49,759 nt of DNA from Chloroflexi bacterium HGW-Chloroflexi-2 (GTDB lineage: Bacteria; Chloroflexota; Anaerolineae; Anaerolineales; Anaerolineaceae). The notes below the pieces were generated by a model, which had not been told where the DNA came from, searched no databases, and saw only the letters and a program-made list of their open reading frames with translations. The stretch spans positions 1-49,759 of the forward strand of contig PHBY01000021.1 in the NCBI GenBank assembly GCA_002840735.1. Reading direction: 5' to 3'. Position numbers and translations under genes: made by a program. Shown piece by piece: positions 37,761-45,927 of this stretch (positions are counted from its first letter, which is position 1; every line of letters starts with the position of its first letter).

Positions 37761-38444
37761 TTAGATCTGAATGGTTTTGCCAAAATGGACCTTCCGCAAT
37801 CCCGGTAAAGCGTAAATTTCCTTTTGAATATCGTCAATCAATTCGGTGCGTTTACAACTATATTCCAGATTGATCTTGGTTTCATCATCTGTAAAATCAT
37901 GTTCATGGCTGAAAGTGATAAGATGAACGTGTTTATGGTCAAAAATTTTGCGGATTTCTGCCAGGTCAGGTGGGACATCTTTAATCCACATGGTAATAGG
38001 AGCGATCGTCTTTGGATGAAACAATTTATTTTCCAATTTATTCATTACAGATAAGACAATAAAAAGAGTAATGGTCACAATTACTGCCGCAGAGAAAAAT
38101 CCTGCACCAACCGCCAGACCAACCACTGCCATGGTCCAGATAGTCGCGGCAGTGGTCAACCCGCGAATATTAACTCCGGCATGCAGAATTGCCCCAGCCC
38201 CTAGAAACCCGATACCGGATATCACCTGCGCCGCCAGACGGGCTGGATCACCCATACCGCCCACCGGTTGATAGACATGCGCAAGCGACACCGAAAGGAT
38301 CATCGCGAGCGCCGACCCCATTACCAGGATAATGTTGGTGCGCAGACCTGCCGGCTGGTTGTCCAGTTCACGCTCAATCCCGATAATAGCACCCAACAAA
38401 AAAGCTACACCTAATCGAATAGTAATATCCATCTCAGAAATCAT
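37761..38444 (-). CDS. MgtC/SapB family membrane protein
   Basis: A 227-aa protein with four to five transmembrane helices and the MgtC signature LGAIIGIERELDNQPAGLRTNIILVMGSALAMILS, ISGIGFLGAGAILH and RGLTTAATIWTMAVVGLAVGAG. A C-terminal soluble ACT-like domain (about residues 145-227) follows. MgtC proteins support growth under low magnesium and inhibit F-type ATP synthase in pathogens; here the role is unknown. AAGGAGG fixes the ATG at 38444. A second, broken MgtC-like gene lies at 17491-17850. Confidence 0.92.
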   Translation of the reverse strand: MISEMDITIRLGVAFLLGAIIGIERELDNQPAGLRTNIILVMGSALAMILSVSLAHVYQPVGGMGDPARLAAQVISGIGFLGAGAILHAGVNIRGLTTAATIWTMAVVGLAVGAGFFSAAVIVTITLFIVLSVMNKLENKLFHPKTIAPITMWIKDVPPDLAEIRKIFDHKHVHLITFSHEHDFTDDETKINLEYSCKRTELIDDIQKEIYALPGLRKVHFGKTIQI

Positions 38445-38699
38445 GTTTTCCTCCTTGATCATTTAAGAATAAATAATGTAAATCACTAATGATAACTTCT
38501 AAACTCATTCTAACAAATAATCATCCATCAGACATTGTTTTCCTTATAAATAAACGATCCAACAAAATTACATCATAAAAAATAAAACATATGTTCTAAT
38601 TTAAGTTTATAATCTATTTCAGGTCATGACTGGATTAATATTCTTCATAAAGAGCTGCTTTCACTTGGAAAGACAGCTCTTCCACAGTCAACCATTTTA

Positions 38700-39515
38700 T
38701 TAGAGGTCCAGGAGAACCACCCTCTCCTGATCCATCCGCTTGGCTGTCCTGATGATCACATATAACATCCCAAACGAAATCAGGATTAACCCGGCTTCGA
38801 TCAACCAGACGTTCACACCAAAGGACATCCCCAACACTGCCAGTCCATCCACCACGGCATGATACAAGACTGCCAGCCAGAACCAGAGCGGTTTGCGGAA
38901 CGAGATGGCAATCCAGACCATCACGCTCAGGGCAATGTGTAATCCCAGGGCGGCGATGCGTTCGACTGCACCAGCCAGCGGCATATGCCAGGGCGTGGCC
39001 CAGTATGCCTGCATCTGTTGCCGCGCCAATGCAGCCTGATTGGGCGATAATGCCGAAAGGGCCTCGCTGGAACTTTGCAACGCCAGCATCGAAACTAGCG
39101 ACGCCAATACGCTGGCACCAATGATGATGGCTTCGATGCCACCATGCCCAGCGCCCAGCGTCAGTGCTGCACCAAAGGAATTACCCTTCTTCTTGAGCAA
39201 TTTATACCCGATCCAACGGGCAGTCTCCTCGAAAATGCCTGCCAGCAGGCCAAGAACGATGGCGTTAAAAAACGGCGCAAAGCCTGGATCAACATGTGGG
39301 AGCAAACCAGTCGAAAAGGCCCTGGTCAGACCATTGACTACTGGCAGATGGAAGATTTGCGAACCGATAAAGGTCAGCACACCCACGCCGAACAACTTCC
39401 AGCTGGTGCCTTTCCGCTTAATGATCCACCAACCCAGAACGAGTGGAAAGATAACATTAAATATCCCGGCTAAAAGGAAAGTTACAATTAATACAACATT
39501 CAGACTATTTTCCAT
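38700..39515 (-). CDS. YhfC-type intramembrane metalloprotease-like protein
   Basis: A 271-aa integral membrane protein with seven or eight hydrophobic segments and the YhfC/CAAX-protease-like motifs GIFEETARWIGY, GAGHGGIEAIIIG and LYHAVVDGLAV, which supply the Glu-Glu and His residues of Abi/CPBP-type glutamic proteases. Last gene of a five-gene operon with an ABC transporter, an SdpI-like protein and a GntR regulator. Such membrane proteases commonly act in bacteriocin maturation or immunity; that role is inference. ATG 39527 is an alternative start. Confidence 0.85.
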   Translation of the reverse strand: MENSLNVVLIVTFLLAGIFNVIFPLVLGWWIIKRKGTSWKLFGVGVLTFIGSQIFHLPVVNGLTRAFSTGLLPHVDPGFAPFFNAIVLGLLAGIFEETARWIGYKLLKKKGNSFGAALTLGAGHGGIEAIIIGASVLASLVSMLALQSSSEALSALSPNQAALARQQMQAYWATPWHMPLAGAVERIAALGLHIALSVMVWIAISFRKPLWFWLAVLYHAVVDGLAVLGMSFGVNVWLIEAGLILISFGMLYVIIRTAKRMDQERVVLLDL

Positions 39516-39536
39516 GATATTCCTCAATGACTTTCA

Positions 39537-40364
39537 TTAATGCGCGCTTTGATAAAGCAAGGTCTTGCGATTGAATTGTTGAATCGCCAGGAAGAACAGC
39601 ACCCCCGCTGCCAGCCAGACGACGAATCCCAAAATCATCCCAACCCAAACGCTCAGATAGATCAATCCCGATGCCTGACCTACAACCAACCCCAATACCA
39701 GAATCACCAACGAACCACTGGCCTGGTATGCGCCCATAAAAGTCTGGACTTTCGCCGAGATTAAAACAGTAGCCCCTACACCCAGGGCAGAAAACGCCGG
39801 CATGACCCAGAATACCAATGGATACCAGGTATCCAGCGGGAACCAGACATACCCAAATAGTGGATAACCACCCACATTCAACACGACCGTGTAAACAATA
39901 AAGCTGACGAGCGACACCAGTACAGCCGGCACAAATGCTGCCAGCGCTTTTCCAATGAATAATTCTGTATCGGTTGCAGCCGTATATAACAATGCTTCGA
40001 GTGTCTTGCGCTCGCGTTCACCGGCAAAAGACTCTGCCGCAATGCTGGATGACAGCATCAATGGCATGATCAGGAACATGGGTGCAAACAAGAAGCCCAA
40101 TATCATGGCGACGGACAGTTGGGCATCATTCAAATTCCCCAGCATCTGCGCGATGGAGGGTGGAATACGTTCAAACATCATCTGAATATCCGGATCATTC
40201 AAGGCATCTGCTGATCCGGTGGTATTGACAACCACCAGCATAACCGCCGGTAAAACCACCATGATAATCAATGGGACCATCACCATGGAAATCAGCACAG
40301 ATTTATTCTGGCGAACTTCCAATATATCTTTCCAGGCAATAATACGAATTTTGCGCCAGTTCAT
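39537..40364 (-). CDS. ABC-2 type transporter permease
   Basis: A 275-aa permease: N-terminal cytoplasmic WRKIRIIAWKDILEVRQNKSVL, then six hydrophobic segments and AESFAGERERKTLEALLYTAATDTELFIGKAL, the conserved ABC-2 (NatB-like) coupling stretch. It forms an exporter with the ATPase whose stop overlaps its start (40361-40364, ATGA). Substrate not determinable; sodium, a peptide or a lipid are all possible. Confidence 0.9.
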   Translation of the reverse strand: MNWRKIRIIAWKDILEVRQNKSVLISMVMVPLIIMVVLPAVMLVVVNTTGSADALNDPDIQMMFERIPPSIAQMLGNLNDAQLSVAMILGFLFAPMFLIMPLMLSSSIAAESFAGERERKTLEALLYTAATDTELFIGKALAAFVPAVLVSLVSFIVYTVVLNVGGYPLFGYVWFPLDTWYPLVFWVMPAFSALGVGATVLISAKVQTFMGAYQASGSLVILVLGLVVGQASGLIYLSVWVGMILGFVVWLAAGVLFFLAIQQFNRKTLLYQSAH

Positions 40365-41326
40365 TTTGTACCTCCGTTGTGACCGTTATTACTTTTGTGG
40401 TTGCTGTTTTGTAATTGTAAATAAACCTGCTCGAGTGGAATTTCCTGTGGTTGCAGACGCAAGATCAATGCACCCAGAGCGACCAGACCGGAGACAACCT
40501 GCGGGATCGCTGCTTCTGAATCTACTTCTATCTTAACTTCCTGCAATGAATGCACATCCAGGCTCAACACACCCGCGATCGCGCGAATCTGATCCATCTT
40601 TTCAAACGGGCTCAGGAGTTGCACCTCCAGCCACATTCCGGGAGAGACCAGCTTGCGTAATTCTGACAAGGTGCCTATCGCCAATGTGCTACCCTGGCGC
40701 ATGATCAACAAGCGATCACACAAGCGCTGGGCTTCATCCAGATTGTGGGTGCAAATCAGTACCGTAGTGCCTTCTTTCTGGCGCACATCCGCGATCAATT
40801 CACGTACCTGTGCCGCTGCTTCCGGGTCTAAACCTGAGGTAGGCTCATCCAGGAAGAGCAATTTAGGGTTCGTCAGCCAGGCTCTCGAGAGCGCCAGACG
40901 CTGCTTCATACCCTTGCTGAACGTCCCTGCGCGATCATCCGCCCGAGGACTGAGATCAAACATCTCCAGCAACTCATCGCTGCGACGTTCAATCTGCTGA
41001 TCGTCCATCCCTGCCAGCACACCAAAGAAGCGCAGGTTCTGCCGGGCGGTCAGGCGCTCGTATAACGCCGGGGTTTCTGTCAGCACGCCGGCCTTCTCGC
41101 GGATTTTTTCACCAGATTTCATCGGATCAAACCCCATCACGGAGATTGATCCCCCACTGGCTTCGAACATGCCATTCAATAGGCGAACTGTGGTTGTTTT
41201 TCCAGCGCCATTCGGGCCCAACAGGCCAAACACTTCTCCCTGTTGTACGTCAAAGGAAAGTTCCTGAATCGCCTGGAAATCACCATACTTGTGTTGCAAA
41301 CGCGATACTTCAATAATTTTTTCCAT
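40361..41326 (-). CDS. ABC transporter ATP-binding protein
   Basis: A 321-aa ATPase with Walker A GPNGAGKTTT (about residues 37-46), signature FSKGMKQRLALSRA, Walker B LLFLDEPTSGLDP and the switch His in ICTHNLDEA. A C-terminal extension of about 90 residues is typical of NatA-like drug or peptide exporters. AAGGAT precedes the ATG, and a perfect parS sequence lies 15 nt upstream, between this gene and the SdpI-like gene. Confidence 0.95.
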   Translation of the reverse strand: MEKIIEVSRLQHKYGDFQAIQELSFDVQQGEVFGLLGPNGAGKTTTVRLLNGMFEASGGSISVMGFDPMKSGEKIREKAGVLTETPALYERLTARQNLRFFGVLAGMDDQQIERRSDELLEMFDLSPRADDRAGTFSKGMKQRLALSRAWLTNPKLLFLDEPTSGLDPEAAAQVRELIADVRQKEGTTVLICTHNLDEAQRLCDRLLIMRQGSTLAIGTLSELRKLVSPGMWLEVQLLSPFEKMDQIRAIAGVLSLDVHSLQEVKIEVDSEAAIPQVVSGLVALGALILRLQPQEIPLEQVYLQLQNSNHKSNNGHNGGTK

Positions 41327-41340
41327 GCTTTTATCCTTGA

Positions 41341-41356
41341 TGTTTCACGTGAAACA
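41341..41356. promoter_or_regulatory. parS-type centromere site 1
   Basis: TGTTTCACGTGAAACA, a perfect 16-bp palindrome identical to the canonical bacterial chromosomal parS sequence bound by ParB. It lies in the 40-bp gap between the SdpI-like and ABC ATPase genes. Confidence 0.8.
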
Positions 41357-41366
41357 TTTCTTCACG

Positions 41367-42029
41367 TTATTTTTCATTTCCATTCATATTAGGATGTTTT
41401 CGCCGATAAGCCACATACGAATAAACTACCGTAAAAACCGACACTGCCAATAATGGCGCCATCATAGCCCATATGGCTATACTCGGGAAAACAACACCAA
41501 CCAGGGTTAAAACACCACTTATCTTAAATCCCTTTGCACCAACGCGATGTGTTTCAGCCCATACTTCATCATCAGCCAATGTCCAGGGAGTGCGGATACC
41601 AATAAAATAATTACGTTTCGCTTTTTCCATCATGACGCCAATGTAATAGAAAAAAACACCAAAGGCAGGGATCATCAAGGCAAACATATTGAAGCGCAAA
41701 CCCAGGTTAAAGAGCAGACTGATCACATGCAGGTAGAAAAAGAAAATAACAAACAATAGAATAAACGTATTGTATTCCTTACGAAATTTAAAAATGTTTT
41801 TCTTGAGTGGGTCAATTTGTGGAATTCCCAACAACAACAATGTCAACCCAATCGTCATCAAAGGTAAAAACCACAATCCCATAAACCGAGACCCATATCC
41901 ATCTGCTTCACCCCTTTCATTCCAGTGGATTGCCATTGGATCCGCAAAACGAGGTTCCAGAATCAGCCCTAATGCCAGAGCAGCCAAAGCCAGGACAATC
42001 GTCCAGATTAATACAGTGCGTGCTTTCAT
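41367..42029 (-). CDS. SdpI-like (DUF1648) membrane protein
   Basis: A 220-aa membrane protein with six hydrophobic segments. Its N-terminus carries the DUF1648 signature (EPRFADPMAIHWNERGEADGYGSR), and a C-terminal SdpI-like part follows (RNYFIGIRTPWTLADDEVWAETHRVGAKGFKISGVL). SdpI is the Bacillus immunity protein to the SdpC cannibalism toxin, and its family is often encoded beside GntR or ArsR regulators. AAAGGAG supports ATG 42029; an in-frame ATG at 42059 would translate the parS palindrome as MFHVKH and is less likely. parS copies lie on both sides of this gene. Confidence 0.88.
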   Translation of the reverse strand: MKARTVLIWTIVLALAALALGLILEPRFADPMAIHWNERGEADGYGSRFMGLWFLPLMTIGLTLLLLGIPQIDPLKKNIFKFRKEYNTFILLFVIFFFYLHVISLLFNLGLRFNMFALMIPAFGVFFYYIGVMMEKAKRNYFIGIRTPWTLADDEVWAETHRVGAKGFKISGVLTLVGVVFPSIAIWAMMAPLLAVSVFTVVYSYVAYRRKHPNMNGNEK

Positions 42030-42042
42030 GTTTTCTCCTTTA

Positions 42043-42058
42043 TGTTTCACGTGAAACA
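42043..42058. promoter_or_regulatory. parS-type centromere site 2
   Basis: A second perfect TGTTTCACGTGAAACA, 702 bp from the first and in the gap between the gntR and sdpI-like genes, 13 nt ahead of the sdpI-like start codon. Confidence 0.8.
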
Positions 42059-42092
42059 TTATTTGTTAATTTTTTATCATATTCTTTCACCA

Positions 42093-42506
42093 TCAGTCAT
42101 TGGTTTCGACCATTTTCTGTCTTTCACGCAGATTGCGCCGAAACACAGCCTGAATTTCTGCGTTGCTATATCCCTGTCTTTCCATCTGATCCAGAAAATC
42201 CCTGGTCAACCGGTCCAACTCCCTGGATGTTTCCGTCTCCTGTGGGGGCACATCCGGCAGGATGTAGGTGCCACGCCCATGCTGGGTGTTGATCACCCCG
42301 GCTTGATCCAGGATGCGATAGGCGCGCGCTACTGTGTTGAAATTAACCTTTAATTGCCGCGCCAGATCCCGCACCGTTGGTAACTGCTCGCCGGTACGCA
42401 ATTCTCCCAGCACGATGCCATCATAGATTTGTTCCACGATCTGATCGGTAATTGGGATACCTGAACGAAAATCGATGTCAATATGCAAGGGGACAGCTTC
42501 TGTCAT
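42093..42506 (-). CDS. GntR family regulator, YtrA type
   Basis: A 137-aa short GntR-family protein: N-terminal winged helix (ITDQIVEQIYDGIVLGELRTGEQLPTVRDLARQLKVNFNTVARAYRILDQAGVINTQHGRGTYI) and only a short helical C-terminus (about 50 residues). This is the YtrA subfamily that typically heads ABC-transporter operons and represses them. First gene of a five-gene operon (gntR, sdpI-like, ABC ATPase, permease, yhfC-like). Six 8-bp repeats lie 39-86 nt upstream of the start. Confidence 0.92.
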   Translation of the reverse strand: MTEAVPLHIDIDFRSGIPITDQIVEQIYDGIVLGELRTGEQLPTVRDLARQLKVNFNTVARAYRILDQAGVINTQHGRGTYILPDVPPQETETSRELDRLTRDFLDQMERQGYSNAEIQAVFRRNLRERQKMVETND

Positions 42507-42544: not shown

Positions 42545-42592
42545 ATTGTATCATTGTATAATTGTATCTTTGTGTGATTGTATCATTGTTTT
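42545..42592. repeat. Six 8-bp tandem repeats upstream of gntR
   Basis: Units ATTGTATC, ATTGTATA, ATTGTATC, TTTGTGTG, ATTGTATC and ATTGTTTT follow each other without gaps. They occupy the gntR promoter zone; they could be an operator array or a slippage-prone promoter element. Confidence 0.7.
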
Positions 42593-42742
42593 TATGATTG
42601 TCAAGTGTTTTTTGTTCGAATCTTTCAAAAATCGCTGTGTTTTTGAAAAGACTATCCACCTGGCCAGGTGTGATCTCGTCCAATCTCAATCCGAGAATCC
42701 TTTATAATCCAAAGTGTAAACTTCTTTATAAGGAATAGACCC

Positions 42743-44364: not shown

Positions 44365-45915
44365 TTATGGCAGAATTTCCACCACCACACCGTTCTCTGC
44401 CCAGTTGTAGAGTGTCTCTCCGCTGGTTAAATCCAGGATGATGCAGCCATACGAAGCTGGACTGCCCAGCACGTTGGCCCACAATCGCACCCCGCTCGAG
44501 AGCACCGGCAACCCGTGGATCCCGTTCATAAAGCCCGGCACTGCCTCGTAGATGCCCATGAAATGCGGCATCCACAAATCCCAGTTGGAGGCGTAGGCAT
44601 TGATCTCGTGCGTCTGGATCTGGAAGACACCCGGCAGCGTGGGGGAATTGGACATCCCGGTGCTGATGACGTGCTCGGATTTCAATTCAAAGTTCTCGTA
44701 GACCCACATGTGTTGCTCTGTGATGCTGATCACGATGCGCTTTCCGAGTACCGGCGGATAGGGTAGCATCTCGTTTTTCGAGGGGATCGTCAGTACCTGC
44801 CCGGCACGCACCCCGTAGATGCTGCTACCCGGGTTGGCTTCCTGGATCTTCCAGTAGGGCATACCGACTTTGAAGCCGATCCCAACCAGGTTGTCGCCAT
44901 ATTGGACGGTGTACTCGGTGGGTTTGTGTCGCAGGAAGATGGTGTAAACACCGCCACCCACCCAGACGTCATCCAGAGTTTCCACGGGGTCTTTGAAGTC
45001 GATCTCGCGGTTGACGATGGTAGATTGCCATTCCTGCAGATACGCCTCGAATTCGCCGGCATCCACCTGCAGATAGGGTTCGCCATACGGGTCATCCAGC
45101 CGCACCCAGCCCGCCACCAGCTCTTGCGGCAGGTTCCAGATCATCAGTTCGTCTGTGATGGCATCCCAGGCGCGCAACTGCAGCGGGCGCTGGTAATGCA
45201 TCGCAATGCGCTGCACCTCGGACGAGAGATCCGCCACGGCCGGGGGAATTACCACCATGGGCAATTGTAAATATCCCTGTGCCAAGACTGCTCCCGGATC
45301 CGCCTGGATGAGCGCCAGTGTCGCTTCCACATCCAGACCCCAGCCCGGCACACCCGCTTCGGCAACCCAGCGCCCCAGGGGGTCGCGTACCAGACGGGCG
45401 TCGACCGGGGGAATCTGCATGCGGGTGGCCAGATCTGTGAAGACCTCGCGCGCAAAGTCGGCGTTGAAGGTCACCACCGGCGCGATCTCATAGCGTCCCA
45501 AAGCTGCCAGCTGCATGATTTCAGCCGTGCCACCACTGTCGCGTCCCACCCCATAAGCCAGCTGGGCGGTCTGTGCCGGGTCAATCCATAAACCAAAATT
45601 GGGCGGGGTAACTGTCCACTTGTAATCCTCATTCAGCACCACAAAATGGGTGGTGTTGTTCCAGTAATCGTCGATGTAGGCGGCAGCATCCGTGAGGGGC
45701 AGGTTACTCAAGTCCACCGGGCCTACACGCACGCCGGGCAGCACCATCTGCGCCTGGCGCACATACAGGGCTGTGCCTGCCACCACCACCATGGGCACCA
45801 GCAGCGCCAGCAAAGCCAGGACGAGCAGGATATTGCCAACTATCCGCTTTCCATTGGATCGCGGTTGGCGTTGGGAATGGGCCTGACGGACAGGTATTGT
45901 TGCGCTGTGTTGCAT
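44365..45915 (-). CDS. L,D-transpeptidase with PG-binding and LysM domains
   Basis: A 516-aa membrane-anchored cell-wall enzyme. It has a basic cytoplasmic N-terminus, one transmembrane helix (ILLVLALLALLVPMVVVAGTALYV), two VanW-type peptidoglycan-binding domains (LPGVRVGPVDLSNLPLTDAAAYI), LysM (YTVQYGDNLVGIGFKVGM) and a C-terminal YkuD domain (KRIVISITEQHMWVYENFE). The catalytic region reads FMNGIHGLP...SPASYGCIILD; the usual His of SHGC is Tyr here while the Cys is kept. It should make 3-3 peptidoglycan cross-links or attach wall proteins. GGAG supports ATG 45915. Confidence 0.88.
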   Translation of the reverse strand: MQHSATIPVRQAHSQRQPRSNGKRIVGNILLVLALLALLVPMVVVAGTALYVRQAQMVLPGVRVGPVDLSNLPLTDAAAYIDDYWNNTTHFVVLNEDYKWTVTPPNFGLWIDPAQTAQLAYGVGRDSGGTAEIMQLAALGRYEIAPVVTFNADFAREVFTDLATRMQIPPVDARLVRDPLGRWVAEAGVPGWGLDVEATLALIQADPGAVLAQGYLQLPMVVIPPAVADLSSEVQRIAMHYQRPLQLRAWDAITDELMIWNLPQELVAGWVRLDDPYGEPYLQVDAGEFEAYLQEWQSTIVNREIDFKDPVETLDDVWVGGGVYTIFLRHKPTEYTVQYGDNLVGIGFKVGMPYWKIQEANPGSSIYGVRAGQVLTIPSKNEMLPYPPVLGKRIVISITEQHMWVYENFELKSEHVISTGMSNSPTLPGVFQIQTHEINAYASNWDLWMPHFMGIYEAVPGFMNGIHGLPVLSSGVRLWANVLGSPASYGCIILDLTSGETLYNWAENGVVVEILP

Positions 45916-45927
45916 AATTGACTCCAA

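Follow-up and report, generated by a model that had tools for sequence, protein, structure and literature searches.

What are two copies of a bacterial centromere sequence doing inside an operon of membrane-protein genes, with the genes of the partition system elsewhere in the genome? The window (the whole stretch of DNA analyzed here, 49,759 nucleotides, which is one entire contig, C22) carries two perfect parS sites around an SdpI-like gene, 702 bp apart, as an earlier note had claimed; the coordinates proved exact, and both gaps are intergenic. The pair very probably provides parS handles for separating copied chromosomes. The two sites are:

41341-41356, no strand assigned: parS site 1, a perfect 16-bp palindrome within the 40 bp that separate the stop codon of SdpI from the start of the ABC ATPase gene
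42043-42058, no strand assigned: parS site 2, a perfect 16-bp palindrome within the 66 bp that separate the stop codon of GntR from the start of the SdpI gene

Both sites match the parS palindrome TGTTTCACGTGAAACA with 0 mismatches, and the rest of the window holds no further match at up to 3 mismatches. Shuffled versions of the window gave a mean of 0.30 matches at this threshold, with at least two matches in 7 of 100 shuffles. Genome-wide (a 4.1-Mb draft of 40 contigs, 99.87% complete), there is no third copy at up to 1 mismatch and a single 2-mismatch match elsewhere. A chance origin of the pair is ruled out by the shuffles together with the whole-genome count. A role as mRNA hairpins was also considered, and the predicted folds of the two parS-containing leaders gave z-scores of -2.26 and -0.54.

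The earlier note had read the sequence as the canonical ParB-binding site within an operon. Indeed, the sites are the exact consensus, and the operon genes are supported by Pfam:

42093-42506, minus strand: short GntR-family regulator of 137 aa, the operon's first gene (PF00392)
41367-42026, minus strand: SdpI-family membrane protein, DUF1648 + SdpI (PF13630, E 1.2e-19; PF07853, E 1.6e-13)
40361-41326, minus strand: ABC transporter ATPase (PF00005)
39537-40364, minus strand: ABC-2 type permease (PF12679), with a 4-bp overlap with the ATPase
38700-39527, minus strand: YhfC family intramembrane metalloprotease-like protein (PF10086)
37761-38462, minus strand: MgtC-family membrane protein (PF02308), the last gene or a separate unit, after a 237-bp gap

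On the minus strand, the order is GntR, parS gap, SdpI, parS gap, ABC ATPase, ABC2 permease, and YhfC, then MgtC, a homolog of which adjoins parS in a few other genera. Based on its size and gene context, we take the GntR of the window to be of the YtrA type. YtrA-type operons start with a small GntR gene followed by an ABC exporter, and SdpI immunity involves an SdpI-family membrane protein. Our operon shares this arrangement, with a small GntR first, an ABC exporter behind it, and an SdpI-family protein; however, here centromere sites occupy the gaps, and SPFH, YhfC, or MgtC is present depending on the lineage. Upstream of gntR, there are two overlapping elements:

42577-42604, minus strand: promoter-like site, TTGACA-16-TACAAT, 11 of 12
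42545-42591, minus strand: ATACAA boxes in 8-bp steps, a candidate GntR operator distinct from parS

The promoter-like site is the best match between 38400 and 42800. Overall, the promoter scan returned fewer sites than shuffled sequence did (5 vs 7.5), so this call rests on the site's own match and its conservation. The parS sites lie ~0.5 and ~1.2 kb from it, on its downstream side. From the gntR promoter to the ABC ATPase, the scan of the operon strand gave no terminator-like site, so both parS sites probably fall within a single transcription unit.

The presence of parS raises the question of which protein would bind it. The earlier note was right that parA and parB are absent from the locus: the genome's single ParB_N gene is on another contig (C12, L004), and dnaA is on C19. 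A ParA-like ORF, its P-loop sequence recognized by eye, precedes parB. The ParB matches structural chains 1vz0, 4umk, 6t1f, and 6sdk (E 1.6e-52 to 3.8e-48); 4umk is a Helicobacter chain, and we take 1vz0, 6t1f, and 6sdk to be Thermus, Caulobacter, and Bacillus ParB/Spo0J chains, respectively. In an alignment with what is presumably the Caulobacter chain, ParB has R/T/K/G at the positions of R173/T179/A184/G201, i.e., RXXG, with Caulobacter numbering obtained by a constant, hand-counted offset of 10. According to PMC7383237, four ParB positions decide between parS and Noc-site specificity, and RXXG residues mark the parS-specific type. We considered whether the palindromes could be Noc-binding sites (NBS) and rejected this, as the sole ParB_N match has R and G rather than Q173/R201-type residues.

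ParB_N genes are present in 95 of the 101 genomes. In the common arrangement of chromosomal ParABS systems, parAB does not lie far from parS, unlike here. In each of the five genomes in which parB and parS share a contig and the distance could be measured (G023, G036, G050, G053, and G071), the best ParB_N match is ~1.1-1.6 Mb from parS by the shorter way, the values for G036 and G050 being lower bounds due to a second contig. In G023, parB is at 1.637 Mb (G023:C1:1636984), near a skew change between 1.67 and 1.80 Mb. Weaker ParB-family matches occur closer to parS in G035 (17 kb away, E 5.5e-24, the second-best match there) and G097 (13 kb away, E 6.7e-5).

Sites with up to 1 mismatch were found in 82 of the 101 genomes, our own included. 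Within the family Anaerolineaceae (n=61, including our own), 35 genomes have two such sites, 11 have one, 5 have three, and 10 have none. Among 146 paired sites, chosen at up to 2 mismatches, the two outermost bases account for 62 of the 75 mismatches and the inner 14 for 13. Of the 19 genomes without a site at up to 1 mismatch, three (G015, G060, and G085) have pairs of 2-mismatch sites, and ten have scattered single 2-3-mismatch matches (for G065, among the matches listed); for G061, G062, G063, G076, G080, and G099, positions were not among the matches listed.

In most family lineages, and in some beyond the family, the sites have stayed with the operon. We scored linkage with the window proteins as tblastn queries (at least 30% identity, at least 60 bits, hits on one strand within 3 kb of parS). 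By this rule, two or more of the six genes of the operon are present at 28/39 family parS loci outside the genus, representing 23/33 genera; at least one is present at 31 of these 39 loci and none at 8. All 7 loci examined from our own genus carry at least two operon genes near parS. Among the other families of the order, four of nine parS loci have at least two operon genes and five have none. In all, no operon gene was found at 13/48 parS loci outside the genus, three of which are on contig ends under 3 kb. In six of the same genomes, the same rule found two operon genes in 0/585 six-kb background windows and one in 44.

The operon can be generalized as GntR-[SPFH]-[SdpI]-ABC-ABC2-[YhfC]-[MgtC]. 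Of the 33 loci with a GntR homolog, 29 have an operon gene beginning no more than 1.5 kb past a parS site, and in none does parS lie inside an aligned operon gene. The gene beside the site varies (SPFH/Band 7, SdpI, YhfC, or MgtC), and because gene content varies, the sites sit in different operon gaps among genera. Individual operon genes show the same association, with the caveat that the cut-offs for the "strongest" matches were chosen after the linkage lists were known. SdpI homologs (E ≤ 1e-10) occur in 34/101 genomes; of the 29 strongest (E ≤ 2e-45, at least 36% identity), 26 are within 0.4 kb of sites with up to 1 mismatch, and the remaining three, in G015, G060, and G085, adjoin the pairs of 2-mismatch sites. 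Five weaker SdpI homologs (23-35%) are unlinked to parS, including the G097 copy, which is 28 kb away on the parS contig. Similarly, 27 of the 28 strongest ABC2 matches (at least 46%) are within 2 kb of parS, the exception being G008, which has no recognizable parS. Two matches at 41-42% are unlinked, while of 35 weaker matches (27-35%), 10 are within 2 kb, one is at 3.9 kb, and 24 are unlinked.

A broader set of named SdpI loci, the best 80 of 567 matches with lineages taken from record titles, gave a similar picture. In the 30 Chloroflexota loci, parS (up to 2 mismatches) is within 1 kb of SdpI in 24, with at least two sites in 19 and sites on both sides in 16 (~30-120 bp ahead of the match start and 570-755 bp past it). 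One locus, from a MAG labeled Anaerolinea thermophila (L312), has two perfect sites around SdpI. Seven of these 30 loci overlap the main set; among the 23 new loci, 17 have a site. Sites were found near SdpI in 0/32 archaeal loci and 1/18 other loci. This both-sided flanking at similar spacing is what one might expect if SdpI-ABC were a mobile or immunity cassette with its own partition site. That reading earns little credence, however: parS also occurs at loci in which no cassette was detected, each of the 34 genomes with SdpI has one copy, there is no parA or parB at the locus, and 49/50 SdpI loci from archaea and other bacteria lack a site. Separately, one locus titled Candidatus Eisenbacteria (L288) has SdpI between two parS-like sites, through either Chloroflexota contamination or transfer.

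The operon's own regulator offers another explanation, raised by the earlier note as a local operator that had converged on the same palindrome: the sites could be operators of the adjacent GntR that equal parS by coincidence. They do lie in a GntR operon, and in 33/33 loci with a GntR homolog all parS sites with up to 1 mismatch are downstream of gntR, on the gntR strand. However, the sites are kept in 14/36 well-flanked loci where no GntR homolog was detected within 20 kb (tblastn with the window GntR, >50 bits), and the sole ParB carries parS-type residues. Furthermore, parS (up to 2 mismatches) is in 0 of 33 gntR upstream regions, while at least two ATACAA boxes are upstream of gntR in 29 of the 33 sequences (32 loci plus the window) instead. 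Coincidental GntR operators are very improbable.

The ATACAA boxes, in contrast to parS, are placed where an operator might be expected. In the window, ATACAATG consists of 8-bp direct repeats that overlap the TTGACA promoter upstream of gntR (42545-42604). At least two boxes were found in 6/3237 random 240-bp stretches and 28/1650 shuffled upstream sequences. The spacing is exactly 8 bp in 50/69 cases, the first box begins 22-23 bp past the start of [CT]TTGAC in 18/33 sequences, and in our own genome, exact tandem boxes are confined to the gntR upstream region. A search for a shared inverted repeat as the GntR operator found one in common among at most 4 sequences. As judged from this sequence conservation, the ATACAA boxes are the probable candidate operator of this GntR group.

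A chromosomal centromere would be expected near the replication origin, the likely position of which we assessed by several markers. In our own genome, the contig ends 7.7 kb past parS, and dnaA (C19) and dnaN (C2) are on other contigs, so both genes were set aside as origin markers for the genus, and clusters of DnaA boxes with SpoVS/dNK were used instead. In two members of the genus, G003 (contig C1) and G007 (contig C12), orthologous DnaA-box clusters lie 8 and 53 kb from parS, the latter with ~43 kb of extra genes between the cluster and parS. Each cluster has a dNK/nucleotidyltransferase-like pair on one side and SpoVS on the other, with dnaA located elsewhere, and the clusters are likely the oriC of the genus. 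In the window, the shared gene order runs no further than the gene at 44365-45927. Tandem repeats (7-bp GGCTGAC units; 65/72/137-bp units) make up the contig end (46125-49755) and may account for an assembly break near the origin. Because the shared order stops there and the contig ends in tandem repeats, we infer that oriC of our own genome is probably past the contig end.

In other relatives, GC skew supports an origin near parS in G023 and G036 and is weak or conflicting in G050 and G053. In G023, a single contig with parS at 296.3 kb, skew changes sign at the site, going from -0.095 (286.4-291.4 kb) through +0.013 to +0.075 (296.4-301.4 kb). In G036, skew changes sign at 550-665 kb and parS is at 690 kb, i.e., 25-140 kb apart, with a 6-box DnaA cluster at 677 kb. 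The skew of G053 changes sign 10-166 kb from parS. In G050, a 7-box DnaA cluster is 15 kb from parS, but the sign change of the weak skew is 170-400 kb from the site. Across the 40 parS loci longer than 9 kb, clusters of at least 5 DnaA boxes (up to 1 mismatch) per 600 bp occur 4.2-8.6 kb from parS in 7 and are absent in 33, including G023; background clusters were found in 2/58 stretches, both 13-15 kb from parS (G036 and G050). The dnaN gene, for which Pfam was run on a cluster representative, is within 10 kb of parS in 15/36 well-flanked loci, and in our own genus the two are on different contigs in 8/8 drafts, some of which have short contigs. Where dnaA and parS share a contig, the distance between them ranges from 1.5 kb to more than 1 Mb, and it is at least 1 Mb in G036 and G071. 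The earlier note had entertained a distal parS cluster and proposed searching the whole genome for parS and parB. That search revealed no second parS set and a ParB with parS-type residues; the sites in the window are the only parS found in the genome, and the same sites are near oriC in several relatives, so the distal reading is not supported.

The sequences establish the identity and uniqueness of the sites, the specificity residues of ParB, proximity to the origin in several relatives, linkage to the operon, and a separate candidate operator for GntR. On this basis the best explanation, in which we have high confidence, is that the pair is the chromosomal centromere of an Anaerolineaceae bacterium, with predicted ParB loading and ParA movement at sites inside an operon. 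Weighing against it are the contig end just past parS in our own genome, the 33 loci lacking a DnaA-box cluster, the skew of G050 and G053, the distance of dnaA in G036 and G071, the remote parAB, the 19 genomes with no site at up to 1 mismatch, and the 13 loci with no operon gene. By analogy with established ParABS biology, ParB from the distant parAB pair would bind and load at the two parS sites as CTP-dependent clamps and spread over the operon. ParA would then move the ParB-parS complex, SMC loading being probable, and the nearby replication origin would segregate first as a result. The transcription unit itself would begin at the GntR-controlled promoter with its ATACAA boxes and encode SdpI, the ABC exporter, and other membrane proteins. 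The likeliest consequence for these genes would be mild repression by ParB, as a putative side effect.

The system resembles the chromosomal ParABS of Bacillus, Caulobacter, and Pseudomonas in its palindrome, its ParB R/G residues, the ParA-like gene beside parB, and its few clustered sites near oriC in several relatives. It differs in that parAB is remote (on another contig, and near the skew terminus in G023) and in that, for most of the family members examined, the sites lie in the gaps of a single operon of membrane-protein genes headed by gntR.

How the centromere came to be associated with this operon may have a passive explanation, in which parS entered once in an ancestor and the origin region has rarely been rearranged, with no ParB-operon influence. 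Other origin genes (dnaN, SpoVS, and dNK) are often close as well, and lineages in which operon genes were not found keep parS near the origin, as seen by skew in G023 and by DnaA boxes in G012. On the other hand, the operon seems more closely tied to parS than dnaN is (29 SdpI and 27/28 ABC2 vs 15/36), and the sites occupy differing operon gaps as genes come and go. We judge the chances of purely passive synteny to be about even.

Alternatively, ParB clamps at the intra-operon parS sites may repress the operon, so that expression of the envelope operon would follow the state of the centromere; this we consider possible, though somewhat doubtful. There is a precedent in Pseudomonas aeruginosa, where ParB represses the PA0011 and PA0013 promoters through parS3/parS4 (PMC5521831). 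As in that case, our sites are intergenic and beside genes that might be controlled, and they are origin-proximal in several relatives, and the parS-operon linkage is old. However, the P. aeruginosa sites precede the promoters of other genes and the effect was measured (PMC5521831), while ours are downstream of the sole good promoter and known from sequence. Also, other genes of the P. aeruginosa parS region were unchanged in parB and parS mutants (PMC7022226). A second precedent is KorB, a ParB-family CTPase clamp of plasmid RK2 that acts over distances of up to 1.5 kb to silence promoters, KorA serving as the lock (PMC11790492). Here too, the putative clamp sites are within 1.5 kb of a promoter with its own small DNA-binding regulator, but this regulator is GntR, not KorA, the ParB is chromosomal, and co-repression is putative.

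With the parS sites ~0.5 and ~1.2 kb away from the promoter of gntR, and with KorB as a precedent, a hypothetical ParB-GntR co-repression model becomes concrete and testable. The most far-reaching version would be a single regulatory unit, in which ParB-CTP clamps slide upstream, stop at GntR on the ATACAA boxes, and jointly silence an envelope-defense operon; once envelope stress released GntR, transcription through the centromere and membrane insertion of the products would feed back on origin segregation or anchoring. We regard this version as unlikely, and passive co-inheritance is at least as likely as ParB-GntR co-repression.

The parS element itself is well known, but its conserved home in one operon with a remote parAB was not met in the literature searched. 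Among open papers (the 2007 parS survey of Livny et al. lies outside this set), no titles were found on parS in Chloroflexota/Anaerolineae or on parS-operon linkage, and the available part of PMC7203096 contains neither parS nor ParB as whole words. Together, these data chart parS, the likely oriC, and parAB across Anaerolineae; in the five genomes where the distance could be measured, parAB is remote from the centromere. They bear on a general question: what sets the position of bacterial centromeres, and whether they affect surrounding genes. Many genera of one family, and some beyond, share the centromere-in-operon arrangement, and the operon's other cis-elements are now visible, which makes the question testable. 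The arrangement may be a clear example of hitch-hiking at an origin in the course of evolution; alternatively, ParB may couple segregation to an envelope operon.

One further observation concerns the annotation of SdpI. An ATG within parS site 2 lengthens its ORF to 42059; we set the start at 42026, as it is preceded by AAAGGAG. The extended palindrome ATGTTTCACGTGAAACAT encodes MFHVKH, and ORF callers can begin SdpI inside parS (41367-42059). As a guess, MFHVKH N-termini in databases may mark genes with an upstream parS.
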